Virus record (IMG/VR): IMGVR_UViG_3300036985_005157
Location: 1 to 35,916 of that record
Origin: a virus
Strand: one strand, 5' to 3'
DNA length: 35,916 nt
Part shown: positions 1 to 35,916 of the stretch, one piece after another
Layout of the letters: every line of letters begins with the position of its first letter
How positions within the stretch are numbered: position 1 is the first letter of the stretch
Notes under the pieces: model-generated
The model's database searches: none
Seen by the model: the letters and a program-made list of their open reading frames with translations, nothing else
Told to the model about the DNA's origin: nothing
Made by a program: the position numbers and the translations under genes

Positions 1-129
1 ATAGATTCTTCTCATAGAGAAACGCCTCTAATAACTCCAATATTGGGGTTATTTTTTTTATCCATATCCAGATCCAACTCCAGATCCAGATCCAGATCCA
101 ACTCCAGATCCAGATCCAGATCCATACCC
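1..129. repeat. Terminal overlap, left copy
   Basis: The first 129 bases match the last 129 (35788-35916) with no gap and a single difference, C at 127 against T at 35914. This shows that the contig closes on itself, so the real genome is about 35787 bp, circular or circularly permuted. It could also be a true short terminal repeat, but it ends inside the hexanucleotide array, where an assembler would stall, so an assembly overlap is the simpler reading. Confidence 0.9.
30..59 (+). terminator. Rho-independent terminator after the holin-like gene (left copy)
   Basis: An 11-bp inverted repeat (30-40 pairing with 43-53, one G-T pair) is followed by a run of eight T on the plus strand. On the closed circle it ends rightward transcripts leaving the holin-like gene at 35515-35769. 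On the minus strand the T-run precedes the stem, so it is probably not an efficient terminator for the leftward operon that ends at 58. Those transcripts may therefore run into the stem and the next region. Confidence 0.75.
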
Positions 130-408
130 AGATCCAGATCCAGATCCATATCCAGATCCAGATCCATATCCATATCCAGATCCAGATCCAGATCCATATC
201 CATATCCAGATTCATATCCATATCCAGATCCAACTCCAGATCCAGATCCAGAAATATCTCCAGGCCCAGATCCAACTCCAGATCCAGATCCAGATCCAGA
301 AATATCTCCAGGCCCAGATCCAGATCCAGATCCAGATCCAGAAATATCTCCAGGCCCAGATCCAAGTCCAAATCCAAGCTTAGATTCAGGACTATCTATC
401 TCTCCCAT
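58..408 (-). CDS. Gly-Ser-Tyr repeat protein encoded by a hexanucleotide array
   Basis: A 116-aa protein with a short unique head (MGEIDSPESKLGFG) and then an almost pure G-x repeat in which x is Ser, Tyr, Val or Pro, including three GPGDIS blocks. The start has a good Shine-Dalgarno (GAGG, seven bases before ATG) and overlaps the end of the upstream DUF6948 gene by 13 nt, as expected for the last gene of the leftward operon. Three facts favour this frame over the alternative Leu-Asp frame on the same strand and the Arg-Ser frame on the other: the RBS, the near-invariant Gly codon, and the one base that differs between the two contig ends, which is synonymous here (GGG/GGA). No signal peptide or known domain. 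The function is unknown; it may be a flexible, low-complexity protein. Copy number may be unreliable in the assembly. Confidence 0.65.
   Translation of the reverse strand: MGEIDSPESKLGFGLGSGPGDISGSGSGSGSGPGDISGSGSGSGVGSGPGDISGSGSGVGSGYGYESGYGYGSGSGSGYGYGSGSGYGSGSGSGYGSGSGSGVGSGSGSGVGSGYG
66..370. repeat. Hexanucleotide array (about 300 bp) with 27 GATC sites
   Basis: The array is built from the plus-strand unit CCAGAT with variants CCATAT, CCAACT and a longer block containing AAATATCTCCAGGCC that occurs three times. I count 27 GATC tetranucleotides between 71 and 366, against about one expected by chance. It encodes the Gly-Ser repeat protein on the minus strand. The contig junction lies in it. 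Since the phage encodes a Dam-like methyltransferase, the cluster could be a methylation-dependent element, for example a packaging site; that part is inference. Confidence 0.9.
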
Positions 409-797
409 ATGGCTACCTCATTTAAACTATTTAAAGCTTTTTCGGTCATGTCTATAATTTCTATGGCTTCAGTTAGTTTTATTCTGTCTACTGCAACAGG
501 GAAATTACATTTGTCTGGCTTAGATGTGCCGTCAACTGCCAATTGGCTTAGGCTTGCAGCTCCGTCCCAATACCAAACTCTTCTGGCATTCCTCATAACA
601 ACTTCTTTGCCATTTTCCGACTCAACTACGCCGTAAAATACGCCAGCTGAGTATGTTCTAACTATTTTGTATTCAGATGGTTTGTAGGTTTTTTTAGCTT
701 CATATTTCCCATTATTATAAGCTAATTCAAGAATTTCTTGCAACGAAGCTTCGTTATTAACCACTTGAGAAATCATTCTTGTAAAATCCATTTTCAT
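396..797 (-). CDS. DUF6948 domain-containing protein
   Basis: A 133-aa protein recognised as the phage DUF6948 family from the conserved middle (AGVFYGVVESENGKEV, ARRVWYWDGAASLSQLA) and the C-terminal part (FPVAVDRIKLTEAIEII). The family is common in phages and prophages and has no established biochemical role. No membrane segment or catalytic motif is evident. The start codon overlaps the stop of the small membrane protein gene upstream (ATGA, 794-797), and its own end overlaps the repeat-protein gene, so it is translated within a coupled operon. A second in-frame ATG two codons later also has acceptable spacing, so the start is uncertain by two residues. Confidence 0.85.
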   Translation of the reverse strand: MKMDFTRMISQVVNNEASLQEILELAYNNGKYEAKKTYKPSEYKIVRTYSAGVFYGVVESENGKEVVMRNARRVWYWDGAASLSQLAVDGTSKPDKCNFPVAVDRIKLTEAIEIIDMTEKALNSLNEVAIWER

Positions 798-8653: not shown

Positions 8654-9133
8654 GTGGGTTTATTGCCAGAAGGCTACGTCTTTGGTAGGCCAACTAAATA
8701 CAAAAAAGAATATTGCAAGCAGCTAATAGAGCACATGAGTCAAGGTTATTCCTTTAAATCATTTGCTGCACGTGTACCGTGTAATGAAGATACTGTTGCA
8801 GAATGGGCAAAAGTACATCAGGACTTTTCCGATGCTAAAACCGTAGGCAAGGCTCTAGAACGGTTCCTTTGGGAGAAAATACATCTCAAATGTTCTATGA
8901 CTGGCGAAGGAAACATGACTGGTATTATCTGGGCACAAAAAAACAAATGGCCTGATGAATTTAAAGAAAAGAATGAAACTATTGTGAAACAAGAGCTAGC
9001 TGTGTCCGGTGACTTTAAATCAATTGTAGCAATGATGACACCTGAACAAATGTATCAATTATCTGTGGCATTAGAACAAAAAACACAAGTATTAGAGGCA
9101 ACACATGAAGTTCGAGACAGTAAAGATAAATGA
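8654..9133 (+). CDS. terS: Terminase small subunit
   Basis: A GTG-start ORF of 159 aa immediately after the preceding stop, without a clear Shine-Dalgarno, so it probably uses coupling. The N-terminal half is the HTH of phage small terminases: GRPTKYKKEYCKQLIEHM, then SFKSFAARVPCNEDTVAEW, which recognises DNA. A helical oligomerisation part follows (ALERFLWEKIHLKC, GIIWAQKNKWPDEFKEK) and a polar C-terminal tail. It binds the packaging site and activates the large subunit. It overlaps the ParB-like gene by 29 nt. Confidence 0.75.
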   Translation: MGLLPEGYVFGRPTKYKKEYCKQLIEHMSQGYSFKSFAARVPCNEDTVAEWAKVHQDFSDAKTVGKALERFLWEKIHLKCSMTGEGNMTGIIWAQKNKWPDEFKEKNETIVKQELAVSGDFKSIVAMMTPEQMYQLSVALEQKTQVLEATHEVRDSKDK

Positions 9134-9626
9134 CCTTACACCATATGTGAACAACGCTCGCAAACACAGTGATAAGCAGATTAAGCAGATCCAAAAGTCT
9201 ATTAAAGAATTTGGCTTTCTTAACCCTGTTATCATCGATGCTACAAATGGCATAATAGCGGGGCATGGTAGAGTTGCTGCTGCTATCAAACTCAAGATTA
9301 AAGAAGTGCCCTGTATCCGTGCCGAACACCTTACAGAAGTACAAAAGCAGGCGTACATCCTAGCGGATAACAAGCTGGCTCTAAATTCTGAATGGGATGA
9401 CACGATCTTGCAAAGCGAACTCCAGGCATTAAAAGAGCTGCAGTTTGATTTTGAGACTATCGGTTTCGATGAACTGCCAGGATTTACTCCCTCACTTCCC
9501 GATGAAAACAAAAGCAATGAGTCTCCAGAAGAAAAACTAGTGCTAATTGTTACGTTAGAGAGCCAAGAGGACAAGCAATTATTATTCGATGAGCTGAGAG
9601 ACCGCGGGTACAAGGTGAAGGTATGA
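9105..9626 (+). CDS. ParB-like (ParB/Srx) domain protein
   Basis: A 173-aa protein with the ParB/sulfiredoxin N-terminal fold: LTPYVNNARKHSDKQIKQIQ, FGFLNPVIID, then GIIAGHGRVAAA, where GHGR (53-56) is the conserved loop, followed by ADNKLAL. The C-terminal 50 residues are acidic and unlike ParB partition proteins. In many phages this domain is fused to a DNA methyltransferase; here the methyltransferase is the next gene with a 4-nt overlap, so the pair probably acts together. No partition parS or ParA is seen. GAGG six bases before ATG supports the start. Confidence 0.8.
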   Translation: MKFETVKINDLTPYVNNARKHSDKQIKQIQKSIKEFGFLNPVIIDATNGIIAGHGRVAAAIKLKIKEVPCIRAEHLTEVQKQAYILADNKLALNSEWDDTILQSELQALKELQFDFETIGFDELPGFTPSLPDENKSNESPEEKLVLIVTLESQEDKQLLFDELRDRGYKVKV

Positions 9627-10666
9627 GTGACTACGGCATTCCTTACATGGGTAGTAAAGCAGGTATAGCACCAAGTATTGCAATGAATTTTCCTTCGGCA
9701 GAGCACTTCTATGATTTGTTTGGCGGCGGATTTTCTATTAGTCATTACATGATTGAGAAGAAAGCAAATAAGTTTAAGTATTTTCATTACAATGAGATTA
9801 AAAAAGATGTAACAGAGTTAGTCAAAAAGGCTATCAATGGTGAGTTTAATTATGATAAGTTCAAACCAAAATGGGTCTCACGAGAGGACTTTTTTAGATT
9901 AAAAGACACTGATGCTTATATTAGATGCTTGTGGAGTTTTGGTAATAATCAGAAGAGCTATTTATTTGGTAAGGATATTGAAGACTATAAAAAATCAATG
10001 CATATGGCGATAGTATTCGGTGAAATTGATGATATTGCTTATTCTGTTTTAGAATTTAAAAAATGGCCGGAAAATGTAAAAACTATCACGCAAAGACGTT
10101 TTTATCTGAGACAAAAATTAGAGTGGTACAATCTGAATAAGAAAATACCAAAGATGTTATATCAATATTTATCTGAAAAACAGTTGAAAGAAATGGGAAT
10201 AAAAGACAACGTAAGACAGTTGCAGCAGTTGGAGCAGTTGGAGCGGTTGGAGCAGTTGGAGCGGTTGGAGCAGTTGGAGCGGTTGCAGCAGTTGCAGCAG
10301 TTGGAGCAGTTGCAGCAGTTGGAGCGGTTGCAGCAGTTGGAGCAGTTGCAGCAGTTGGAGCAGTTGCAGCAGTTGCAGCGACTTACTATTACCTGCGTAG
10401 ATTATCGCCAGGTTGAAATCCTACCTGATTCTGTTGTTTATTGTGATATTCCTTATGCTGGTACCTCTGATTACGGCACATTTTCACACAAAGAATTTTT
10501 CGACTGGGCAGCTACTCGCGCATTCCCTGTATATATTTCAGAGTACAATGTGCCTGATCCAAGATTTCAGCTTGTTTATTCTATTGATAAAAGGGTTTTA
10601 CTAACGACAACTGGGGATAAAAATAAGGTTAAATCTGAAAAACTATACTGGAATGGCGTCAAGTGA
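9623..10666 (+). CDS. DNA adenine methyltransferase (D12/Dam class) with repeat insertion
   Basis: A 347-aa enzyme. An N-terminal IPYMGSK motif, SAM-binding DLFGGG (31-36), an NEI turn and catalytic-loop motif DIPY (275-278, a variant of DPPY) identify a D12-class N6-adenine methyltransferase. Members commonly methylate GATC; the specificity here is not readable. Residues 200-253 are an inserted minisatellite-coded block of 18 LxQ/LxR triplets, between the recognition part and the catalytic loop. Its start overlaps the ParB-like stop (ATGA) and its stop overlaps the terminase large-subunit start (GTGA). Methylation would protect phage DNA or mark packaging sites. Confidence 0.9.
   Translation: MSDYGIPYMGSKAGIAPSIAMNFPSAEHFYDLFGGGFSISHYMIEKKANKFKYFHYNEIKKDVTELVKKAINGEFNYDKFKPKWVSREDFFRLKDTDAYIRCLWSFGNNQKSYLFGKDIEDYKKSMHMAIVFGEIDDIAYSVLEFKKWPENVKTITQRRFYLRQKLEWYNLNKKIPKMLYQYLSEKQLKEMGIKDNVRQLQQLEQLERLEQLERLEQLERLQQLQQLEQLQQLERLQQLEQLQQLEQLQQLQRLTITCVDYRQVEILPDSVVYCDIPYAGTSDYGTFSHKEFFDWAATRAFPVYISEYNVPDPRFQLVYSIDKRVLLTTTGDKNKVKSEKLYWNGVK
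10220..10381 (+). repeat. 9-nt minisatellite in the methyltransferase, 18 units
   Basis: TTG, then GAG or CAG, then CAG or CGG (CGA in the last unit) is repeated 18 times without interruption. The period is a multiple of three, so gain or loss of units by slippage keeps the reading frame. It codes for Leu-Glu/Gln-Gln/Arg triplets. Confidence 0.95.
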
Positions 10667-12000
10667 TTTCTGATCGCTTGTTCTCCCTCACAGCCTTTGG
10701 ACGATTATCTGCTACTCTATTCCAGCAGCAACAAGACTTCATACGCGATAAAGCCAAGATGAAGGTTGCCTGCTGTACGCGCCGTGCTGGCAAGTCACAC
10801 GTTGCAGCTATTAAATTACTGCAGGCTGCTTCGCGTGTACCTAACTCTACTGCTCTCTATTTATCTCTGACTCAGCGTAGCGCCAAAGGCATCATGTGGA
10901 GAAAATTAAAGCAGATAGTTACACAGTATAAGCTGCCTGTTGAGTTTAAAGAGTCTGAGTTAATAGCAGTACTACCGAATAACTCTAGAATAGTTTTGTA
11001 TGGAGCTGATAAAGAAAACCTTATGGATACGCTGCTTGGTGATGCATATTGCACAGTAGTTATCGATGAGGCTCAGTCTTTTGGCTCTCACCTCCAGGAT
11101 ATGATCGATGAAGTTTTAGAGCCAGCCACGTTGGATTACGCAGGCGATATATCGCTAATTGGTACACCAGGGCCTACTTGTAACGGTATTTTTTACGAGG
11201 CTGCCGTTGGCGCTGCAGAGTATTATTCTAGGCACAAATGGAGTCTGCTAGACAATTTCCACTTACATAATGCAGCAGGCTGGCTCTCTGATCTTAAAAC
11301 ACGCAGGGAGTGGAGCGATGATAATCCAACGTATCGTCGTCAGTATCTAGGGGAGTGGGTAGTCGATCTATCTGCTTTAGTGTACAAGTTTAATATTAAT
11401 AAAAATGTTTACCATGAGCTTCCCAATGTTGATTTTAACTATGTAATCGGCCTTGATTATGGGTGGAATGACGCCACGGCTTTTTGTGTGTTGGCTTATT
11501 CAGAAAAGCACCCGAATGCTTATGTGTTGGACTCATATGGCAGGTCAGAAATGACACCTTCGATGATAGCCACAGAGCTGAAAAAGCTAATGGTTAAATA
11601 TAACCCTGAGCGAATCATTGCGGATACAGGTGGTCTAGGTAGAAGTATCACTGAGGAAATGAGATTACGTTATGATTTACCAATTATTGCAGCAGAAAAG
11701 ACTGAAAAGATGACTGCAATTGATATGCTAAACTGTGACTTTATGGACAGAAGATTGTTTATTAACGCCAAATGCAAAGCATTACACTCACAACTAGAGG
11801 CGTTAACGTGGGATGATAAGCATAAAGAAGATCCAAGCCTACCAAATGATTTATGTGATAGTTTTTTATATTCAACAAGGTATTCTCGCCACTACTGGGG
11901 CAAGATACCGACAATTATTAACCCTCTTGAAACAATGGAACAGGAGATATTAGACTATGCAAGCGCTAAACCAAAATACTTTGACGATATTGGATATTAA
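10663..12000 (+). CDS. terL: Terminase large subunit
   Basis: A 445-aa ATPase/nuclease of the DNA-packaging motor. Walker A CTRRAGKS (38-45), Walker B VVIDEAQ (about 131-137), then the coupling motif region SLIGTPGP. The C-terminal RNase H-like nuclease shows GLDYGWND (about 262-269), IIADTGG (about 317-323) and DLCDSFLYS (near 397). GTG start overlapping the methyltransferase stop by 4 nt. It cuts concatemeric DNA and pumps it into the prohead docked on the portal. The family type (pac or cos) cannot be fixed without a tree; the circularly permuted contig favours headful packaging. Confidence 0.92.
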   Translation: MISDRLFSLTAFGRLSATLFQQQQDFIRDKAKMKVACCTRRAGKSHVAAIKLLQAASRVPNSTALYLSLTQRSAKGIMWRKLKQIVTQYKLPVEFKESELIAVLPNNSRIVLYGADKENLMDTLLGDAYCTVVIDEAQSFGSHLQDMIDEVLEPATLDYAGDISLIGTPGPTCNGIFYEAAVGAAEYYSRHKWSLLDNFHLHNAAGWLSDLKTRREWSDDNPTYRRQYLGEWVVDLSALVYKFNINKNVYHELPNVDFNYVIGLDYGWNDATAFCVLAYSEKHPNAYVLDSYGRSEMTPSMIATELKKLMVKYNPERIIADTGGLGRSITEEMRLRYDLPIIAAEKTEKMTAIDMLNCDFMDRRLFINAKCKALHSQLEALTWDDKHKEDPSLPNDLCDSFLYSTRYSRHYWGKIPTIINPLETMEQEILDYASAKPKYFDDIGY

Positions 12001-12184
12001 AGAGCTGATTACATTCTGCAAAACTAATGATGTATATGACTTTAGATTAGGCGGTCTACAATTCTCTTTAGAGCGCAAGAAGCCACAATTTTTTCCGCTA
12101 GAAGAAATGGCACCAACAGCACAACTGACACCTGCACAACAGCGCGCCGAAGATGATAAGCTCATGTTTATGAGTTCACTCTAA
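11957..12184 (+). CDS. Small protein between terminase and portal, 75 aa
   Basis: Overlaps the terminase end by 44 nt. The product has a helix (TILDIKELITFCKTNDV), a strand pair (YDFRLGGLQFSLERK) and a Pro/Gln-rich tail. Similar small proteins occur between terminase and portal in short-tailed phages; none has a known role that I can name. GGAG lies 10 bases before ATG. Confidence 0.6.
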   Translation: MQALNQNTLTILDIKELITFCKTNDVYDFRLGGLQFSLERKKPQFFPLEEMAPTAQLTPAQQRAEDDKLMFMSSL

Positions 12185-12199
12185 AACAGGAGATAATTG

Positions 12200-14044
12200 A
12201 TGTCAGAAAATCAAGTGCAACAATATCGCTGGTGGCAGCATGAAGGTGACAGAGCAGCAGTCACAATATTTACTTTAATGCGTCACTGGGATACTACACA
12301 AGGCGCTGTGCAAGCCTCTAACTTGCGCAACATGCGCTTATACGCAAACCGTGATGTAGCCTCGCTATCGATTGCGCAATACGTTTTAAGCGCGTCCCAG
12401 GAATACATGAGTGGCGGAATTTCTGGGGGTGCCAGTTGGAACAGGCAGTCTAGAATTACGCTCAACGTTGTTAAGTCCTGCATTGATACTCTCTATTCTA
12501 AAATCGGCAAGAATAAAGTTAAACCTACCTTTTTGACTACTGGCGGTAGCATTAAACATCGTCAGCGTGCGATGAAATTAAATAACTTTATGTTTGGTAC
12601 ATTCTGGGAAGGTGATATTTATAATATCGCACCGATGGCATTTAAAGATGCAATGATCTTTGGTACAGGATTTATTAAAGTCTATACTTGTCCTAAAACC
12701 AAACGTATTAAATACGATAGAATATTTCCTGATGAGATTACATGCGATCCTGCAGATGGCTATTATGGTAAACCTAGACAGCTATTCCAGCGAAGATTTG
12801 TATCTAGAGACTATTTAATGGAAATGTTTCCAGACCGTAAGAATGATATTCTATCAGTAAAACAAACTGATATTTCTTATACTGGGGCAGCTCAAGACAC
12901 GATATTAGTTTGCGAAGCATGGCATCTTGGAGATGATGGAAAGCATACGTTATGTATTGATGGTGTGAATTTGTTCACTGAAGACTGGAAGGACGATTGC
13001 TTTCCTTTTGTAGTTATCCGTTACACAGAGCAATCTGTTGGGTATTTAGGGTGTGGGGTATGTGAGGAGCTTCTTGGTATTCAAGTGGAGATCAATAGAC
13101 TACTTCTACACATTCAAGAATCAATGCGATTAATATCTCATCCTAGAATATTTATCGAAACAGGAAGTAAGGTAAATCCACGCCATATTACTAACGAAAT
13201 TGGTACATTTATCCCATACACTGGCACCCCTCCGATTATTCAAGCGGCACAAGCGGTACATCCAGAACAGTTTCAACAATTAGAAAACTTGTATCAAAAA
13301 GCATTTCAGGTTTGCGGTGTCTCCGGCCTTTCTGCAATGTCGCAAAAACCAGCTGGTTTAAACTCTGGCGCTGCAATAGCTGAATATAATGATATAGAAA
13401 CAGAACGTTTTGCACGAACAGGGCAACAATATGAGCAAGTATTCCTCGACTTAGCTAAACTAACCTGCAGAGAATTGAATAAAACTCCTGGTTATAGAGT
13501 TAATTCTCCACAAAAAGACGCAGGATTAGAGAGGTTAGTATGGAAAGATATTCGCTTGCCAGAGGATGAATATGCAATACAATGCTTTCCTACCTCTGCA
13601 CTACCTAAAACACCCGCTATGCGTCTACAACATGTAAAAGACATGATAGATATGGGTGTAATTGATCCGATGCAGGCCACAGAACTATTAGATTTTCCGG
13701 ATTTGGAAGCATACAATCGAATTACTTTATCGCCTATTCGTTTAGCGTACAAAGTAGTCGAAGGTATTCTATTTGATGGAAAATATGTAGGCCCTGAACC
13801 ATTCTTTGATCTACATTTAATGCAGCTCACAGCTCAGAAGTATTATTCATGGGCTCTTACGTTAGATGAAGTAGATGAAGATAACCTCGATCTTCTAAGA
13901 CAATTTATGGATGATATAGAGATTATCAAAGCGCAGGCCGCTATGCAAGCGCAGGCTGCTCTTCCCCCATCACCACAGGAGATGGGATTGCCTATGTCTC
14001 AGGACGTCGGAATGCCTCCTCAAGGGCTATTACCAGCAGCGTAA
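12200..14044 (+). CDS. Portal protein
   Basis: A 614-aa portal. I take ATG at 12200, which has AGGAG seven bases before it. The sequence has the portal order: an N-terminal helix-rich part (YRWWQHEGDRAAVTIF, RNMRLYANRD), the clip and wing region (AFKDAMIFGTGFIKVY, IFPDEITCDPADG), crown-side helices (QVEINRLLLHIQESMRLIS), and a C-terminal Pro/Met/Gln-rich tail. In this family twelve copies form the ring at one vertex where terminase docks and through which DNA passes. The position, right after terminase and before scaffold, agrees. A terminator-like hairpin follows at 14059-14107. Confidence 0.85.
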   Translation: MSENQVQQYRWWQHEGDRAAVTIFTLMRHWDTTQGAVQASNLRNMRLYANRDVASLSIAQYVLSASQEYMSGGISGGASWNRQSRITLNVVKSCIDTLYSKIGKNKVKPTFLTTGGSIKHRQRAMKLNNFMFGTFWEGDIYNIAPMAFKDAMIFGTGFIKVYTCPKTKRIKYDRIFPDEITCDPADGYYGKPRQLFQRRFVSRDYLMEMFPDRKNDILSVKQTDISYTGAAQDTILVCEAWHLGDDGKHTLCIDGVNLFTEDWKDDCFPFVVIRYTEQSVGYLGCGVCEELLGIQVEINRLLLHIQESMRLISHPRIFIETGSKVNPRHITNEIGTFIPYTGTPPIIQAAQAVHPEQFQQLENLYQKAFQVCGVSGLSAMSQKPAGLNSGAAIAEYNDIETERFARTGQQYEQVFLDLAKLTCRELNKTPGYRVNSPQKDAGLERLVWKDIRLPEDEYAIQCFPTSALPKTPAMRLQHVKDMIDMGVIDPMQATELLDFPDLEAYNRITLSPIRLAYKVVEGILFDGKYVGPEPFFDLHLMQLTAQKYYSWALTLDEVDEDNLDLLRQFMDDIEIIKAQAAMQAQAALPPSPQEMGLPMSQDVGMPPQGLLPAA

Positions 14045-14058
14045 ACCTGACCGACACA

Positions 14059-14107
14059 AATGCCCACTTGTTATTTTAGTGGGCATTACTTTATTATTTT
14101 TTTATTG
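14059..14107 (+). terminator. Hairpin terminator between portal and scaffold
   Basis: ATGCCCACT (14060-14068) pairs with AGTGGGCAT (14078-14086) with a 9-nt loop, and a T-rich run follows (14088-14107, interrupted). It sits between the portal stop and the scaffold start. It may end or attenuate packaging transcripts; no obvious promoter follows it, so partial read-through is probable. Confidence 0.65.
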
Positions 14108-14117
14108 GGAGCACATT

Positions 14118-14915
14118 ATGACAGAATTTACTACATCGCCAACACAAACTGGAGCAGCGCCGACGGGTGAGGCATCACAAGTGCAAAGCCAGGCATCAAA
14201 TGTAGATAATGATTATGCGTCGAGATTTGCTAGGCTGACACAAAAGGAAAGGCAAATGCAAACCCTCCGCGAGTCGATGAAATCGGATCGTGAGGAACTT
14301 GAGAGCTATCGTAACCTCAAGAAAACTGCATCAACTAATCCTAATGATGTATTGCAGAAATTTGGAATATCATATGGTGAGTTGACTGAGAAAATTCTAA
14401 CTCCTGAAGATAAGTACGCTACACTTGAACAAAGACTTGCTAAATTCGAAAATGATCAGCAGGAATCTTTGATAAAAAATCAAGAGCGTGACAATCAAGC
14501 GGCATATGACAATGGTTTAAATATTATTAGAACCTTTGTTAATGAGCGCGCAGATGATTATGAATTTATCAGAATAAACGAAGGATATGATGACGTGCTA
14601 GATTTAGCAGCTAAATATTTTAAAGAGACAGGTAAATACTTGTCCTTTGAAGAGGCTGCCAACTTAGTAGAAAAACATTTTGAGCAAGAAGCCGAGAAAT
14701 ACACGACTAGCAAGAAGCTCCAGGCAAAATTTCAGCAAGCACAGCAGCCCAAGGACGGTGCTACTGTCTCTGAAAAGTTGTTCAGCAATCAAGATACAAA
14801 GACACTGACAAATAACGCCACAGCTACGGCAACACCTCAAGAATCTGTAGCAGATGACAAGATTCTTATGCAACGTGCGATCCAAGCATACCGCAGTGGA
14901 TCAATTAAAAAATAA
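14118..14915 (+). CDS. Capsid scaffolding protein
   Basis: The start is ATG at 14118 with GGGAG six bases before it. This 265-aa protein has a polar N-terminus, a long helical coiled-coil-like part (ASRFARLTQKERQMQTLRES, KYATLEQRLAKFEND), and a basic helix at the C-terminus (ILMQRAIQAYRSGSIKK). This is the usual scaffold layout, where the C-terminal basic helix grips the coat protein during procapsid assembly, after which the scaffold leaves. It is immediately before the coat gene. The call rests on composition and gene order. Confidence 0.75.
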   Translation: MTEFTTSPTQTGAAPTGEASQVQSQASNVDNDYASRFARLTQKERQMQTLRESMKSDREELESYRNLKKTASTNPNDVLQKFGISYGELTEKILTPEDKYATLEQRLAKFENDQQESLIKNQERDNQAAYDNGLNIIRTFVNERADDYEFIRINEGYDDVLDLAAKYFKETGKYLSFEEAANLVEKHFEQEAEKYTTSKKLQAKFQQAQQPKDGATVSEKLFSNQDTKTLTNNATATATPQESVADDKILMQRAIQAYRSGSIKK

Positions 14916-14929
14916 TTACGGAGTAACTT

Positions 14930-16159
14930 ATGTTAGACATTAGCGCATTTTCAGCTGCATTAAAACAAATCTACCCTGATTGGAAGGTTCAAGATTTAAC
15001 ATTTCGTAACAATCCGTTCTACGCTCTTGTAGACAAGAATGAAGATTTTTATGGAGAGGTGATCAAGAGTCCCCTTATATACGGAAATCCAGTCAATCGT
15101 AGCAACACTTTCTCAAGCGCATTAGCTGGAACTTCAAGTTCTTTGCTAAAAGGTTTTCTATTAACTCGTAAGAGTGACTATTCTCTTGCAAGCATTTCTA
15201 ATGAAGCATTAGAAGCGTCACAATCCTCAGAAGGCGCATTCTTGGAAGCTGCTAAGCTAGAAATTGATGGCGCGCTTAAACAACTAGCTCGTTCGCACTC
15301 TATCAAAATCTTTAGATCTGGATCTGGATCTATCGGTATTATTAAAGCAGCTTCTTCTCCTACAACAACTGTTGAGATACAAACTATCCAAGATGCAGTG
15401 AACTTCGAAGTTGGTATGAAGTTAAACGCTTCTGCTACCGATGGCACAGGCACAGTTCACGCTGATAAACCTACAATCGTATCGATTGACAGAGCAGCTG
15501 GTACTATGGTTGTTACACCTAGCGTTGCATCGACATGGGCAGCTGGACACTACATTTTTGTAGATGGCGACTATGGCAACGCAATGAGTGGACTTGATGC
15601 ATGGGTTCCTTATGATGATCGCGCTACCCGCTTGGCAGCTAGCTATTATGGGGTAGTTCGAACCGCAGACAGCATTAGGTTGGGGGGTTGCGTTTATGAT
15701 GGCTCTTCTAGTAATTATGAGGAAGCCTTGATTGACGGGCTAAACTTCGCTTATAATGTTGGTGATGCTGAGATTGACTATGTATTTATGAACCCTATCG
15801 ACGTAGCGCAATTAACCAAGATATTGGGATCTAAAGTACAACGTGTGCAAGTATCTGCTGAAGTTAAAGAGGGTGGCCGCTCAATGGCTGCTATCGCATT
15901 TAACGGTATCGAAATATATTATGCTGGTGGATCTGCACGTGTAATTGGTGATCGTAACTGTCCTAAAAACAGAGCATTCGGAGTAACAATGAACACCTGG
16001 AAATTAAATTCACTAGGTAAAGCTGTGCGACTTTTTGAAGCAGATGGCCTTAAAATGCTTAGGAGCAACTCAAGCGATGCATTAGACATAAGAGCTTTCG
16101 GCTATTTAAATCTTAGCTGTACAGCCCCAAGTAGAAACGTTCAGATTAAATTAGCATAA
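14930..16159 (+). CDS. Major capsid protein
   Basis: A 409-aa coat protein preceded by GGAG, directly after the scaffold gene and well ahead of the tail genes. The N-terminal part (ISAFSAALKQIYPDWKVQDL) resembles the N-arm, followed by an E-loop-like region (GNPVNRSNTFSSALAGTSSS), a long spine-helix-like stretch (NEALEASQSSEGAFLEAAKL) and beta-rich A-domain segments. These suggest the HK97 fold of P22-like capsids. Assigned from gene order and pattern. A strong terminator follows at 16204-16228. Confidence 0.85.
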   Translation: MLDISAFSAALKQIYPDWKVQDLTFRNNPFYALVDKNEDFYGEVIKSPLIYGNPVNRSNTFSSALAGTSSSLLKGFLLTRKSDYSLASISNEALEASQSSEGAFLEAAKLEIDGALKQLARSHSIKIFRSGSGSIGIIKAASSPTTTVEIQTIQDAVNFEVGMKLNASATDGTGTVHADKPTIVSIDRAAGTMVVTPSVASTWAAGHYIFVDGDYGNAMSGLDAWVPYDDRATRLAASYYGVVRTADSIRLGGCVYDGSSSNYEEALIDGLNFAYNVGDAEIDYVFMNPIDVAQLTKILGSKVQRVQVSAEVKEGGRSMAAIAFNGIEIYYAGGSARVIGDRNCPKNRAFGVTMNTWKLNSLGKAVRLFEADGLKMLRSNSSDALDIRAFGYLNLSCTAPSRNVQIKLA

Positions 16160-16203
16160 AATGCTTGTTCATATTTTGAACAGATACTTAGTTAGTTAAT
16201 ACT

Positions 16204-16228
16204 GGAGCGGGTAACTCCGCTCCTTTTT
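16204..16228 (+). terminator. Rho-independent terminator after the major capsid gene
   Basis: GGAGCGG (16204-16210) and CCGCTCC (16217-16223) form a GC-rich 7-bp stem with a 6-nt loop, followed by five T. It sits between the coat gene and the next virion gene. A smaller hairpin (TGTTCA/TGAACA, 16166-16182) lies just after the coat stop and may stabilise the mRNA end. Confidence 0.85.
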
Positions 16229-16244
16229 CTTAAGGGAAAACAAA

Positions 16245-17354
16245 ATGGCTAATAGGACTTTTTACAACAGAATATTTACAGGAGAATGCGATATGACTAT
16301 TTTATCAGCACGTGCAAGCATTGGGCTCACTGGTGCTATCAGTGATATAGTCGGTACCGCTGTAAGCACAATCACTAAAGAATCTGGCAATGGTAACTAC
16401 TCGGTGACTCTTGCTGATCCTTACAATGCATTTTTAATGGGTCAAGTTATGTTTGCTTGCGAGTCAGACAGCGTAGCTAAAACCTGCGTTTCTGGTACTG
16501 CGCAAGTTGACAGACTGACTTTTGTTGCTAAAGCATCGTGTGTTTCCGGTGATTTCTTCATCGTGACAGATACTGCTGGCGTAAAATGGGCAGGATCAAT
16601 TGATGTTACCGGATCAGCTCCAGAGCCAACCTCTGCCCTTTGGACTGCTGTTGGCGCGACTAAAAAAGTGCATATTGATATCTCTGCAGCTACCACTGAC
16701 GCTGAGGTTGCGGCTGCTGTACGCGCTGCTTTTGCTGCTTTGACTGGTATTGGTACCACAATCACTGTAAGTGTCGTTACCGGCGCTTATTTCGATTGTA
16801 CTGAAGTTTACCGCGCACCTGTTGCTGTTCCTGCTCTTTACAAAGAAGATGGCGCTGCTACTCCTACCTCATTTACAACTACTGTTGGTACTGCAGGCGT
16901 TCAAACTGCGTATGACATCACCAACACTACCGGCGAGACGATGACTATCGTGGCTCACGGATTTACCACCGGCAAGCTAGTTGCTTTGAGCATTAACTCA
17001 GGTGCATTGCCTACTGGCTGGGCTGCTGGCGCTTATTATGTAATCGCTGTTTCTGCCAATTTGATTGCATTAGCATCAACTTTAGCTAACGCCGAAGCTG
17101 GAACTAGAGTAGCTATTTCTGATTATGGAGATGCTACTAAAACCGTTACTGTTACTCCAACTGCTCCATTTGGATCGCTTGTAGCAAGAACAGAATTCAC
17201 TTCTGTATCTCTAAAAGCAAATGTACAATCTAACAGCAAGATTTATTTTACTTGTTATGACTATGCAGGAACTCAAGTAAATCCATCTAATGGTAGCAAA
17301 ATGTATATTGAAATGCACCTTCGCAATAGCAACGTAAGCGGAGCAGGAGAATAA
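16245..17354 (+). CDS. Capsid-associated virion protein with two inserted beta modules
   Basis: A 369-aa protein right after the coat gene. Residues 1-88 (MANRTFYNRIFTGE, AISDIVGTAVSTITK) and 308-369 (IYFTCYDYAGTQVN, YIEMHLRNSNV) look like one small virion protein interrupted by two modules. Module one (about 91-218) carries FFIVTDTAGVKWAGSID and a TDAEVAAAVRAAF helix, a pattern found in many phage and bacterial surface proteins. Module two (about 222-305) carries MTIVAHGFTTGKLVALS and AYYVIAVSANLIALA, another recurrent beta-rich module. It could be a decoration or head-completion protein exposing the modules on the capsid. The role is inferred. Confidence 0.65.
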   Translation: MANRTFYNRIFTGECDMTILSARASIGLTGAISDIVGTAVSTITKESGNGNYSVTLADPYNAFLMGQVMFACESDSVAKTCVSGTAQVDRLTFVAKASCVSGDFFIVTDTAGVKWAGSIDVTGSAPEPTSALWTAVGATKKVHIDISAATTDAEVAAAVRAAFAALTGIGTTITVSVVTGAYFDCTEVYRAPVAVPALYKEDGAATPTSFTTTVGTAGVQTAYDITNTTGETMTIVAHGFTTGKLVALSINSGALPTGWAAGAYYVIAVSANLIALASTLANAEAGTRVAISDYGDATKTVTVTPTAPFGSLVARTEFTSVSLKANVQSNSKIYFTCYDYAGTQVNPSNGSKMYIEMHLRNSNVSGAGE

Positions 17355-17355
17355 T

Positions 17356-17676
17356 ATGCCACTACCGATGGGCCCAGACCGAACAAAAGGCAAAATTTCT
17401 GGCTTGATCATTGAACAAATGCGGCCAAGTTTTGCTAACGGTATGCGCAAAGGTAATGAAAAAAGTCTCCACGATATGCAGTACGGAGAGAATGAAGTCG
17501 AAGAGGAAAAGGAATTCCAGGCAGCTGGTTCCATGGCCCTCAGAGCAATGTTTTCTGCTATGCAAAGTGGAGATTTTAATGCTGCATACCAAGCTTATTT
17601 GAGTGCCCACAAGATTGTTGACGCTCAAATTGAAGAAGAGGAAGAAGAGGAAGAAGAAACGGGCATGGAGGATTAA
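17356..17676 (+). CDS. Small phage protein with polyglutamate tail, 106 aa
   Basis: ATG one base after the preceding stop, with GGAG upstream. The product has a short basic head (DRTKGKISGLII), a helical part (AAGSMALRAMFSAMQSGDFN, AAYQAYLSAHKIVDAQ) and a C-terminal run of nine Glu. It is next to the head-tail adaptor gene, so a role in the head-tail joint or as a chaperone is possible, but no known family is recognised. The acidic tail would repel DNA or bind a basic partner. Confidence 0.65.
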   Translation: MPLPMGPDRTKGKISGLIIEQMRPSFANGMRKGNEKSLHDMQYGENEVEEEKEFQAAGSMALRAMFSAMQSGDFNAAYQAYLSAHKIVDAQIEEEEEEEEETGMED

Positions 17677-17696
17677 TACCCTCTGCACTCGCTCAT

Positions 17697-17744
17697 CATA
17701 GTGTGATAGCCTCTATTTAAACGTATAGAGGGCACCACACTATG
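17697..17744 (+). promoter_or_regulatory. Two-tier RNA hairpin covering the adaptor RBS and start codon
   Basis: An outer 9-bp arm CATAGTGTG (17697-17705) pairs with CACACTATG (17736-17744), which contains the ATG of the next gene. An inner arm CCTCTAT (17710-17716) pairs with ATAGAGG (17725-17731), which contains the Shine-Dalgarno AGAGGG. Folded, the mRNA would hide both signals. Candidate translational control element for the adaptor gene. Confidence 0.6.
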
Positions 17745-18419
17745 ACTTACGCACCTAACACAGTTACAGTAGCTAGCATGATTACCGGAGCGCGCGAGCG
17801 TGCTGACATGCTAAACACGCAGTTTGTAACAGACACCGAAATAGTATCACTTATAGATCAGAGCTATCGAAAACTTTATAATGAAATAATTAACCGTTTT
17901 GAGAATTATTACGTATCAGAGGCCACTATTGTATTAGTGCCAGGCCAGCGGGATTATGATCTACCAGCTGACTTTTTGAAGCTGTTGGGCGTCGATATAG
18001 TATCTGGTGGCAAAAACTTTACCATGCAACCATGGTCTTTAAATGAGCGGAATAGACTGCTCACTGGTTGGGTTAGCAGACCGATACGCTACATTCTAAA
18101 AGGCGGCAAGATATCATTTGTGCCAGTTGCCTCAAGCGCTGATAGCATAACTATGTTTTATGTGCCAAGTCCTGCAGAAATTACAGCAGTTAGTTCAGTG
18201 GAAGTATTCAGTGGATTTGATGAGTTTATCATGTGTGATGTAGCAATAATGTTGAAACAAAAAGAGGAATCTGACTGCCAGATTTTGTTGATTCAAAAGG
18301 CAGAGCAAAAGCAAATGATAATGGAAACGTTACAGGGTAGAGATTCAGGATTCCCACAGAAAATGACAGATATGGCAAGAATAAATGACAGAGCATGGTT
18401 TCAATTCTGGGGTATGTAA
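17742..18419 (+). CDS. Head-tail adaptor (P22 gp4-like tail accessory factor)
   Basis: A 225-aa mostly helical protein with a central YDLPADFLKLLGVDI motif, TDTEIVSLIDQSYRKLYNEI near the N-terminus and a PVASSADSITMFYVPSP strand pair. It resembles the phage adaptor proteins that bind the portal after packaging and provide the platform for the tail. In P22 the counterpart is gp4. It is placed between the head and nozzle genes, as expected. Its start codon is inside the hairpin at 17697-17744, so translation may be regulated. Its stop overlaps the next start (TAATG). Confidence 0.7.
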   Translation: MTYAPNTVTVASMITGARERADMLNTQFVTDTEIVSLIDQSYRKLYNEIINRFENYYVSEATIVLVPGQRDYDLPADFLKLLGVDIVSGGKNFTMQPWSLNERNRLLTGWVSRPIRYILKGGKISFVPVASSADSITMFYVPSPAEITAVSSVEVFSGFDEFIMCDVAIMLKQKEESDCQILLIQKAEQKQMIMETLQGRDSGFPQKMTDMARINDRAWFQFWGM

Positions 18420-18724
18420 TGGCACTTAGGACTAAAAGTTTTCGTAAATTATATACAAAAGATGATACAATTAATAGGATACAGGACTCTATTAAAGAGG
18501 CTATTGATCCTGTGTTATCTGATTTAATATTAAATAGAGCAGAAATAATAACGACAATATTAACAACTGATACTGTAATAAGCCACAACTTAAACCGCAT
18601 ACCAACCGGTTTTATAGTGACAGATACCACGACGAATTCCACTCTTTGGAGAGTTGCATGGGATGCCTCCACGATAACACTCAAAGCATCGACCGACTCT
18701 CCAATTAAACTATTTTTATTTTGA
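18419..18724 (+). CDS. Tail-adaptor-region protein, 101 aa
   Basis: Start ATG at 18419 overlaps the previous stop by one base, with GGGG six bases upstream. The product begins with a basic helical segment (ALRTKSFRKLYTKDD, NRIQDSIKEAIDPVLSD), followed by beta strands (VISHNLNRIPTGFIVTDTTT, STLWRVAWDASTITLKAS). Proteins of this pattern sit next to adaptor and nozzle genes in short-tailed phages and are usually annotated as structural, but a specific role is not known to me. Confidence 0.65.
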   Translation: MALRTKSFRKLYTKDDTINRIQDSIKEAIDPVLSDLILNRAEIITTILTTDTVISHNLNRIPTGFIVTDTTTNSTLWRVAWDASTITLKASTDSPIKLFLF

Positions 18725-18732
18725 GGTAAATT

Positions 18733-21651
18733 ATGCCATTAGAATTTAGTCATGTACCGATACAAATTGGTGGCATAAACACCAAAATGGATGATAAGCA
18801 GTTGCAGGCAGGGACTTTTGTATCCGCTGAAAATGTTGTGATGCAAAAAACTGGGAAAATTCAGAACCGACCAGGGTACAAATTTACAAGCACTCCTATT
18901 ACGCACTCCTCAGAAGTGATTGCAGCAGCGGCATACGACAATGGGAATATATCTATTGAAAGAGATGGGTCTGTTTATTTTGATGAATTAAATGCCACTA
19001 ATAAAGTGGGATCCTGGAATAATTTTGCTACTATTGAATTTGAACAGGCAAAGTGGCCAGTTGTATTACAAAGTAATACTGTACAACATTATAATATGAG
19101 CACAAATAGTTTATATTGTTCTAGCGTATTTATGGTAAAAAACGCTACACAATATGAAATGAAGTACGCCATAGCCTCAATAAATACTAATTTAATATTA
19201 GAAAGTAATTTAAATACCTCCGTTATACTTGGAACTTCTGCTACAATAGCTGGCCCTGTTGCCTACAATGGAGACAGTGTGGCGTATACTTATAGTGGCG
19301 GGTCTATTGGGAATATAGTATTTAAAAAATATGCTACTACCGCGATAACTTACGCAACAGGTGCTCTTGAAGTAAGAAAAATGGATGTAAAAGAAACTGC
19401 TGCATACATTATTTGTTTGTATCAAGACAGCGCTAATAATATTATATTAGGAATATATACAAAAGTAGCTGCTACTTGGAATACAATAACAGTTGCTGCT
19501 ACTACTGCTAGTGTTATGATAGCGTTAAATGCTTCAGAATCAGGAAATGAAATTGATGTTGCTTATCAGAATGATACTGATGACGACTATTATGTTTTTA
19601 TATATAATTTTAGTGGTACTCTTATTTATAATTGGAGTATCCCAATTACTGATAATAGGGTTAAATTAGCCATAGGATTAAATAGTTCTGATGCTACTAA
19701 TATTTATATAGCTGCTCAAAACTCTAGTGCTGCTTATAATATTGCAATACATAAAGTAAATAAAGCAACTGGAGTAATTGCAACTACTACTAATATTCTT
19801 GGCTGCGAACTAGTTTCTAAAATATCCTATCCATATGTTGTAGTAAAAAATGCTGATATTCGTGCGAATTCCACCTATTTTATAGCAGATTTAAGCACTA
19901 CTTTTGTATATGCTCCTTTATATAATACACTAGTCGCATCTTATGGATACGGAGAAGCAATAATACAGTCTGAATTTACTGCATCTAGCTTATTATTAGA
20001 GATGGAAAATCTAGTATTCCCATATATCCGATTTAATCCCACAAGTGGTATTGGAGCAGCAGATAAAAGTTATGGCATATTTATGGGACATATGAAAGGG
20101 AATATAACTACAAATAAAGCGCAGGTTATTCCTTGGAATGGCAGCTTAATTACAAATGCTTGGGGTTCTTTAAGAACTATTGATAATGCGGAGGCATTCC
20201 AGCCATTATGGACTAGTATGCCTTTGGCAGCAATGATTCCTACGTTATCAGCACTCCCTCCTCATACAAGTACCGCATTAGGGGCAGGGACATATACATA
20301 TGTTTTAGTTTATCAAACCTATGACATTAACAACAATGTTATTTATAGTTCTCCATTACAAACCGCTAGTATTACATTTGCCGCTGGAACACAAAATTCA
20401 GTTAGAGTAGTTAATATCGCTCCTCAATTTAATTTTTTGCCTTTAAATGCCACATCAACTGATAGTGTAATTAAAATCTATCGAACAGAAGCAGACGGTG
20501 ATTTGTTTTATTTTGTTGGTGAAAAACTTATAACAACCGTTTTTGATGATATAGTTACCGATGCAGTTTTAATTGGCAATAGATCATTATATACAACTGG
20601 TGGATTAATTGATTCATCACCCTGCCCAATTGCTAAAAACATATCTCTTGCAAAAAATAGGCTATGGGTTATTACCTCTGAATCTAACGAATTAGTTTAT
20701 TTTTCTAAAAAACAATTTCCAAAAGAGGCTCCACAATTTAATTCCTACTTTGTTATTAAGGTTCAAAGTCTTGGAGGGAATTTAATAACGTGCGCTGAAA
20801 TGGATGATAAAGTAATAATCTTTAGACAGAATGCTATTTACGCAACATATGGCGAGGGCCCTGACGAATCAGGTACAGGATCGTTTGCAGACCCACAGCT
20901 GATTACTCAAAGCATGGGATGTAAATATGCTCAGAGCGTAGTTTTAACTGATGCAGGCCTCATGTTTATGAGTTATGAGGGTATTTGGCTGGTAACCCGT
21001 GGCCTCCAGTTGCAATATATTGGTGCTCCTCTAGAAGCATTTAATTCCCTAGAAATTACTGCCGCACTTAATCTTATAGATCGACACCAAGTCTGGTTTA
21101 CATCGGCAACGGGCACTACGCTTGTTTGGGATGACCAACATGGGATGTGGTACACGTTTATTAATCAACCTACATATGCACCGTTTTTAACTAATGTAGG
21201 CGTGCCAGCTCATTACAGGGCCATAGCGGCGAGTAAATACCCTGGGCGATTAATGATAGAGGACGCAACCAAATGGTACGATGGCGCCTCTGATAACCCG
21301 ATTACAGTGACATTAGAGACGGGTTGGATTGCACTAAGCGGAGTTCAAAATTTCCAGCGTTTAAAAAAATTGACCTGGCTGGGTAAACTAAACGATACGC
21401 TCACAATAAAATCTTACTTTAATTTTGAGACTACATTAAACGAAACTTTTACAGTTACTACAACTGCAGCCGGCACATCTCCAGCGCAATATCAAGTGCT
21501 ACCAAAACAGCAGAAATCCGAGAGTATGAAGTGGAAATTTGAAATAGCATCTTTAACAGGAGCTTTTGAGTTATCAAGTCTTGGAATAGAAGCAGGAATA
21601 AAACGTGGTACATTTAAAGTTAATCAATCAAAACGAGTACAGGGAGTATAG
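18733..21651 (+). CDS. Tail nozzle / DNA stabilisation protein (P22 gp10-like)
   Basis: A 972-aa protein, the largest in the genome. It starts with IQIGGINTKMDDKQ, then GTFVSAENVVMQKTGKIQNR, typical of the N-terminal strand of the P22 gp10-like tail hub. The middle consists of repeated beta-sheet segments, as expected for a propeller. Late in the sequence, RLWVITSESNELVYFSKKQF, DKVIIFRQNAIYATYGEG and GLMFMSYEGIWLVTRG are typical of this group. In P22 the hexameric hub binds the adaptor and plugs DNA until injection. The first residues and the position after the adaptor support the call; some phages have longer or shorter versions. Confidence 0.7.
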   Translation: MPLEFSHVPIQIGGINTKMDDKQLQAGTFVSAENVVMQKTGKIQNRPGYKFTSTPITHSSEVIAAAAYDNGNISIERDGSVYFDELNATNKVGSWNNFATIEFEQAKWPVVLQSNTVQHYNMSTNSLYCSSVFMVKNATQYEMKYAIASINTNLILESNLNTSVILGTSATIAGPVAYNGDSVAYTYSGGSIGNIVFKKYATTAITYATGALEVRKMDVKETAAYIICLYQDSANNIILGIYTKVAATWNTITVAATTASVMIALNASESGNEIDVAYQNDTDDDYYVFIYNFSGTLIYNWSIPITDNRVKLAIGLNSSDATNIYIAAQNSSAAYNIAIHKVNKATGVIATTTNILGCELVSKISYPYVVVKNADIRANSTYFIADLSTTFVYAPLYNTLVASYGYGEAIIQSEFTASSLLLEMENLVFPYIRFNPTSGIGAADKSYGIFMGHMKGNITTNKAQVIPWNGSLITNAWGSLRTIDNAEAFQPLWTSMPLAAMIPTLSALPPHTSTALGAGTYTYVLVYQTYDINNNVIYSSPLQTASITFAAGTQNSVRVVNIAPQFNFLPLNATSTDSVIKIYRTEADGDLFYFVGEKLITTVFDDIVTDAVLIGNRSLYTTGGLIDSSPCPIAKNISLAKNRLWVITSESNELVYFSKKQFPKEAPQFNSYFVIKVQSLGGNLITCAEMDDKVIIFRQNAIYATYGEGPDESGTGSFADPQLITQSMGCKYAQSVVLTDAGLMFMSYEGIWLVTRGLQLQYIGAPLEAFNSLEITAALNLIDRHQVWFTSATGTTLVWDDQHGMWYTFINQPTYAPFLTNVGVPAHYRAIAASKYPGRLMIEDATKWYDGASDNPITVTLETGWIALSGVQNFQRLKKLTWLGKLNDTLTIKSYFNFETTLNETFTVTTTAAGTSPAQYQVLPKQQKSESMKWKFEIASLTGAFELSSLGIEAGIKRGTFKVNQSKRVQGV

Positions 21652-35514: not shown

Positions 35515-35769
35515 ATGGATACAGCAGTAATCGACGCTATCATTGCATTTTTAACCGGAGCATTTGGCCCTACGATGCTAGTTGTGTTTGCTGTAATAGG
35601 CATATTTAGAGCCATTTTTAAGCCTCTCATGGCATTGATTGCAGCTATTGTTGCAGTTACACCATCGAAGTCAGACGATGAGCTGTTGGCAAAAGTAGAG
35701 GGCAATAAGTGGTATGCAATGTTTGTTTGGCTTATAGATTACTTGACATCTGTTAAGCTTCCCAAGTAA
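35515..35769 (+). CDS. Probable holin (two-segment membrane protein)
   Basis: An 84-aa protein with two hydrophobic segments, AIIAFLTGAFGPTMLVVF (8-25) and FKPLMALIAAIVAV (35-48), then a polar part and a C-terminal amphipathic helix ending TSVKLPK. Size and topology fit a class II holin, which would open the inner membrane and release the signal-less endolysin. It has its own promoter, a GGGAG site before ATG, and ends 48 bp before the terminator at the contig end. It may instead be a virion or host-membrane protein. Confidence 0.6.
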   Translation: MDTAVIDAIIAFLTGAFGPTMLVVFAVIGIFRAIFKPLMALIAAIVAVTPSKSDDELLAKVEGNKWYAMFVWLIDYLTSVKLPK

Positions 35770-35787: not shown

Positions 35788-35916
35788 ATAGATTCTTCTC
35801 ATAGAGAAACGCCTCTAATAACTCCAATATTGGGGTTATTTTTTTTATCCATATCCAGATCCAACTCCAGATCCAGATCCAGATCCAACTCCAGATCCAG
35901 ATCCAGATCCATATCC
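35788..35916. repeat. Terminal overlap, right copy
   Basis: Matches 1-129 with one substitution (T at 35914 against C at 127). It contains the holin terminator and the start of the hexanucleotide array. It marks contig closure rather than new content. Confidence 0.9.
35817..35846 (+). terminator. Rho-independent terminator after the holin-like gene (right copy)
   Basis: Same stem and eight-T tail as at 30-59, here in its natural place 48 bp after the holin-like stop codon. Confidence 0.75.

Follow-up and report, generated by a model that had tools for sequence, protein, structure and literature searches.

A GATC-dense hexamer array in a viral contig is very probably a coding by-product of a Gly-X repeat gene linked to DUF6948

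The dense cluster of GATC sites at the start of the 35,916-nt virus record IMGVR_UViG_3300036985_005157 (“the window”, i.e., the whole stretch of DNA that was analysed) is very probably a by-product of the Gly-Ser codon pairs of a small gene that encodes Gly-X dipeptide repeats. This gene belongs to a widespread and apparently undescribed cassette, in which a predicted Sm-like protein, DUF6948, is followed by a hypervariable Gly-X open reading frame. The tempting reading of the cluster as a set of phage Dam sites is thereby removed, and a testable cassette pattern takes its place. The features of the window around the array are the following:

30 to 53, plus strand: terminator-like hairpin with a T run, between the convergent small gene at 35515–35769 and the repeat gene
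58 to 408, minus strand: Gly-X dipeptide-repeat gene P0001 (116 aa), with its ATG at 408 and its stop at 58–60; frame and start are conserved in relatives
66 to 370, minus strand: GATC-rich stretch, a hexamer array of GGATCT, GGATAT and GGAGTT with three copies of the block GGGCCTGGAGATATTTCT and 27 GATC
396 to 797, minus strand: DUF6948 gene P0002 (133 aa; PF22253, E 5.2e-29), a predicted Sm/LSm-like small beta-barrel
35788 to 35916, no strand assigned: end repeat of the record, a copy of 1–129 (129 bp) with one mismatch at 127

The sequence-only reading of this DNA had reported 27 GATC sites between positions 66 and 370, and a motif count over the whole window confirmed the cluster, with the first site at 71 and the last at 362. 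Outside the array, GATC occurs 0.82 times per 302 bp with a maximum of 4, which puts the excess in the array at ~33-fold. The frequency in the rest of the window is neutral (2.7 per kb), and dinucleotide shuffles of the window contained ~105 GATC in total, or ~0.9 per 305 bp. All 27 array sites read AGATCC on the plus strand, i.e., each is a GGA|TCT junction on the coding strand, where the repeat gene (408 to 58) spells its Gly-Ser, Gly-Tyr and Gly-Val repeats as GGA-TCT, GGA-TAT and GGA-GTT. With Gly written GGA and Ser written TCT in the repeat unit, a GATC arises at every Gly-Ser pair.

The 116 codons of P0001 comprise 50 Gly, 33 Ser, 9 Tyr, 4 Val and few others, with Gly spelled GGA in 46 cases and GGG in 4, and Ser spelled TCT in 32 cases and AGT in 1. 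The gene provides its own internal control, in that Gly is GGA in 19 of the 23 cases before residues other than Ser, and Ser is TCT in five of the six cases without a preceding Gly, and no GATC arises in either position. Gly before Ser is GGA in 27 of 27 cases, a small difference from the 19 of 23 elsewhere; the codons are also homogeneous at pairs that do not make GATC, and the homogeneity is therefore not specific to the pairs that do. With the general codon use of the phage (GGA 0.33 of Gly, TCN 0.66 of Ser), the 27 Gly-Ser pairs would be expected to yield 5.8 GATC in place of the 27 observed, so that codon usage alone is insufficient and a homogenisation of the repeat appears to be needed. 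The three identical GGGCCTGGAGATATTTCT blocks are a direct sign of block duplication. Slippage or unequal recombination would make the array grow and shrink, and this turnover may fix one Gly codon (here GGA) across the array, by which the GATC sites would be multiplied. The end repeat (1–129 = 35788–35916) places the break of the contig within the array, so that the first part of the array is present twice and its second copy accounts for the seven GATC at 35858–35909; the length of the array in the window is uncertain because of this cut in the assembly. A search of Rfam gave no match, no near phage isolate was found by the DNA of 9000–20000, and the only direct relative of this phage that was found is a 4.6-kb contig with a 94% TerL.

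The gene directly upstream, P0002, was assigned to DUF6948 (PF22253) with 100.7 bits versus a gathering score of 27, and the last 13 nt at its 3′ end (797 to 396) are shared with the start of the repeat gene, which is read in a different frame. In all of the first eight viral relatives of P0002, a Gly-X hexamer array directly follows the gene; its codons are different ones, and GATC is not dense in it. Loci were then collected from viral (80), prokaryotic-genome (45) and phage and plasmid (10) records, the labels of the prokaryotic-genome loci covering a very wide range of bacterial phyla and also some MAGs of archaea. Counts were based on the 140 DUF6948 loci whose downstream sequence extends for 60 nt or more, a set that includes the window and a few duplicates. 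In 134 of these a Gly-X repeat gene, with X mostly Ser, Tyr or Asp, lies directly downstream. The main Gly codon of the 134 arrays is GGC in 109, GGT in 14, GGG in 9 and GGA in 2, and 112 of the arrays contain no GATC at all because Gly is spelled GGC or GGT. The 73 GATC that do occur in the 134 arrays are, without exception, GGA|TC junctions. The retention of GATC in relatives had been put forward as a means of deciding whether the sites themselves matter, and the outcome was that the Gly-X protein is kept where GATC is lost; the simpler view offered alongside, that the sites follow from the GGATCT codon pair, accounts for every site here and in the relatives.

GATC-rich GGA-TCT arrays behind DUF6948, with 8 to 22 sites, recur (L129, L130, L132, L157, L163 and L208). 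Pure (GGATCT)n Gly-Ser tracts were also seen at L185, L181 and L133 with no DUF6948 match nearby, and these are apparently unrelated microsatellites or linkers. Many DUF6948 loci besides the window (e.g., L012, L223, L228, L232, L237, L245 and L256) lie on contigs that end inside the Gly-X array, i.e., the repeats break assemblies and many phage contigs stop within them.

The genes around the cassette in annotated phages belong to recombination and replication (Erf, SSB, RecE, Bet, RusA and XerD), and the cassette of the window lies near a Sak4-like AAA_24 ATPase, DUF669 and a primase. The Pfam entry PF22253 assigns no function to DUF6948, and the literature search found no paper on this family, nor one that matched phage dipeptide repeats of the Gly-X type. 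What the present analysis adds to DUF6948 is its predicted Sm-like fold and the Gly-X ORF linked to it. The cassette spans phages and prophages of very diverse hosts, and in it the predicted Sm-like protein nearly always precedes a fast-evolving dipeptide-repeat gene.

The Gly-X array is translated, as judged from the sequence signs of an overlapping ATG, a locked frame and in-frame fusions. The start ATG of the repeat gene overlaps a conserved Trp codon of DUF6948 (ATGG), and the base before this TGG is A in 105 of the 117 loci that have Trp at that position. The same A is found in 31 of the 35 loci with a GC content above 50%, where GTA or ATA codons would not be expected. In nearly all loci, the array shares its frame with an ATG that overlaps DUF6948 or lies close by. 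The DUF6948 end is different in a subfamily from Pectobacterium, Iodobacter and Vibrio phages, and there an alternative overlapping ATG, in the other frame, has the same role. In some lineages, several of which come from gut or rumen bacteria, the ORF runs on into a conserved C-terminal domain of ~155 aa. A search for this domain, from which 80 loci were kept, revealed Gly-X repeats fused to it in frame in all 78 loci having upstream sequence, and a preceding DUF6948 gene in all 54 loci with enough of it. The predicted model of the domain is confident (pLDDT 94) and bears no resemblance to the solved structures with which it was compared, and the domain had no match in Pfam, PHROG or NCBIfam. 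As a separate observation, the Gly-X-fused domain occurs in at least 141 viral contigs (loci L016, L325, L326, L329, L333 and L357–L436). A frameshift that would fuse DUF6948 to the repeats was also considered and rejected, as no conserved slippery site was visible by eye at the junctions and the overlapping ATG is the simpler route.

The arrays themselves are hypervariable. The Pectobacterium phages Ymer and Amona are identical over the 404 nt before and the 200 nt after the array, whereas their repeat proteins have 73 versus 67 residues and a different order of X. In Koroua, Pappous and others the arrays differ again, between the shared ends MSKLIKPEKYG and GEG. The variation is confined in an unusual manner: within arrays, the median entropy is 0 at hexamer positions 3 and 6, which are synonymous, and ~1 bit at positions 4 and 5, i.e., the coding positions vary and the synonymous ones are fixed, the opposite of how proteins ordinarily evolve. 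As for the main Gly codon, it is GGC in 90 of 111 loci, where the codon usage of the phages themselves would predict 37.9; among AT-rich loci the corresponding figures are 23 of 29 and 6.8. The repeated blocks were longer than those in permuted arrays in 27 of the 109 longer arrays. This pattern is read as repeat turnover combined with selection for a mixture of Ser, Tyr and Asp, and the nucleic acid itself may be under constraint as well. Two further observations were made on arrays L009–L016 and L213–L347, namely that TC, TA and GA, the main dinucleotides at X, are closed as a set under reverse complementation, and that Gly is spelled GGC also where the phages are AT-rich.

A possible role for the cassette is suggested by the fold of DUF6948. 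AlphaFold2, run with 104 DUF6948 sequences, predicted a confident small beta-barrel (pLDDT 91), and in a Foldseek comparison of this model with the PDB the best 50 matches were all Sm/LSm proteins (best E 2.8e-3, probability 1.00, TMt up to 0.69). The sequence profile of DUF6948 matched no Sm chain at E values up to 10. DUF6948 is thus predicted to have an Sm-like fold, at the level of fold and from a model. The protein, encoded in the early replication/recombination region, might then form a phage ring of the Sm/Hfq type that binds nucleic acids, and the Gly-X protein would be its translationally coupled, disordered and usually Asp- and Tyr-rich partner, which would tune or cluster it. This joint mechanism is much weaker than the turnover proposed for the array; it is put forward tentatively, as a possibility that is rather doubtful on balance. 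Eukaryotic Sm proteins carry Gly-Arg tails, to which the Gly-X partner would be comparable.

A rival explanation places the function at the level of RNA. The transcript of the array, in which the GGC-NN-Y scaffold is constant and NN varies, would be bound by the Sm-like DUF6948 and would carry information, in analogy to the VIPR phage guide RNAs built of GGY/NN repeats that were reported in a 2026 preprint (PMC13142463). Such a function would fit the contrast between the frozen positions 3 and 6 and the variable NN, the GGC bias that goes beyond the usage of the phages themselves (in the AT-rich ones too), the variability between identical flanks and the RNA-binding-type fold predicted for the neighbour. 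However, GGY may also be favoured by the major tRNA-Gly. The array moreover is translated, with its overlapping ATG, locked frame and uniformly in-frame C-terminal fusions; it has a period of 6, not 5; its NN is almost confined to TC, TA and GA (Ser, Tyr and Asp); the DUF6948 model is not of the RRM/RAMP type; and the predicted RNA folding is no stronger than that of hexamer-permuted arrays (mean z −0.37). The window's own array, in addition, uses GGA rather than GGY. An RNA-level function is therefore improbable. It is likewise a long shot that the array acts twice, as a translated gene and, through its mRNA (fixed GG-C..Y, variable NN), as a ligand of the Sm-like DUF6948. If this were true, the array would be a hypervariable hexanucleotide code read as RNA in inter-phage or phage-host conflict, and a period-6, Sm-based counterpart of VIPR.

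The reading that the GATC cluster itself had invited concerns methylation, i.e., that methylation of the array by the phage's own Dam-like enzyme controls when the terminase cuts, in the manner of the P1 pac site, or when replication occurs. The features that bear on it lie in the order TerS-like gene, ParB-like gene, methyltransferase and TerL:

8654 to 9133, plus strand: small terminase-like gene (TerS; phrog_309, E 1.4e-14), with 0 GATC
9623 to 10666, plus strand: D12/Dam-like DNA methyltransferase (phrog_56, E 1.5e-32), with FGGG at aa 29–37 and DIPY at aa 275
10220 to 10381, plus strand: tandem repeat (L-Q/E-Q/R)18 in the target-recognition region of the methyltransferase, an in-frame 9-bp unit
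10663 to 12000, plus strand: large terminase gene (TerL; phrog_2, E 3e-43)

The enzyme that had been noticed between the terminase genes is thus present, although it is distant from Dam. Like the Dam family (TIGR00571), the protein METHYLTRANSFERASE has readable motifs X, I and II, and it matches T4 Dam remotely (E 1.5e-5), over residues 6–95 only. For the SAM-binding motif FxGxG, the sequence FGGG was read at aa 29–37. Unlike that family, the protein carries DIPY in place of the catalytic DPPY and scores 38.6 bits against TIGR00571, below the cut-off of 114.85. Residues 6–95 and 246–296 align to Dam, and the stretch between them (aa 95–246) is unaligned. In alpha-class enzymes, the target-recognition domain lies in the stretch between such blocks, and it is here that the L-(Q/E)-(Q/R) repeat is found. 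The repeat is present in 55 of 62 viral relatives of the methyltransferase, with 5 to 20 units, and its variation is nearly confined to two positions of the 9-mer, both non-synonymous. With a hypervariable repeat in the recognition region, a GATC specificity of the enzyme cannot be assumed, and the repeat, being of the same style as the array, is a warning against reading that specificity from the family name. As a side observation, a methyltransferase match in record G057 (the contig of L130; 19913–20161) contains two in-frame TAG codons, possibly those of a TAG-recoded phage or of a broken gene.

The 33-fold excess of GATC and the vicinity of the enzyme to the terminase genes speak for a methylation-gated element. 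Counting against the by-product reading, GATC-rich arrays recur in several other phages, and two of these records have a methyltransferase match, strong or weak. Most homologous arrays, however, lack GATC, as described above, and the hallmarks of P1 pac are absent. That site consists of 161 bp inside pacA, the small-terminase gene, with seven TGATCA/G (PMC10028697); the array contains no TGATCR and is located 8,246 bp from TerS. GATC-rich arrays occur in phage records of 34–43 kb without a detectable enzyme, among them DUF6948 arrays with 18 and 22 GATC in 40-kb records without a phrog_56 match, where the fragments among the records make single absences weak. An obligate link between cassette and methyltransferase was rejected, as phrog_56 was found in 4 of 50 records with DUF6948 or an array (the window serving as positive control, 1.3e-34) and DUF6948 in only 1 of 48 methyltransferase-bearing records, many of which are fragments. 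The likeness to P1 pac is limited to the clustering of GATC and to a phage gene for an adenine-methyltransferase-like enzyme, and the analogy failed on motif, location and conservation, the 27 AGATCC being part of a Gly-X gene. A methylation-gated packaging or replication element is therefore highly improbable. A functionless expanded microsatellite or a misassembly at the contig end, which the break inside the array, the two copies differing at one base and the similar contig ends of many relatives might suggest, is scarcely credible given the position of the array behind DUF6948 in nearly all loci, finished phage isolates included, and the conserved start codon and in-frame fused domain, which contradict an artefact.

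The preferred reading, a coding by-product within a translated Gly-X gene of the DUF6948 cassette, can finally be set against the systems that it resembles. The superficial likeness to VIPR is strong, as in both a small phage-encoded protein lies beside an array with a fixed GG-Y and a variable NN. VIPR, however, has a period of 5, with YNNGG pentamers in an untranslated RNA of ~100 nt with a conserved tail, and a RAMP/RRM protein (PMC13142463); the VIPR locus of SUSP1, inspected as a yardstick, has this period of 5, is untranslated and adjoins a 195-aa Vipr candidate. Membership of the DUF6948 arrays in VIPR was ruled out by period, translation and the fold predicted for the neighbour. In Hfq, an acidic tail and RNA compete for the ring (PMC5606850), and for the working mechanism this tail would by analogy be the closest functional picture of the Gly-X partner. 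As in Hfq, Sm and LSm proteins with low-complexity tails, a predicted Sm-like fold is tied here to a disordered, usually acidic low-complexity segment. Unlike in Hfq, the tail is a separate overlapping ORF, made of Gly-X repeats and hypervariable, and it would act beside a putative ring that may bind RNA.
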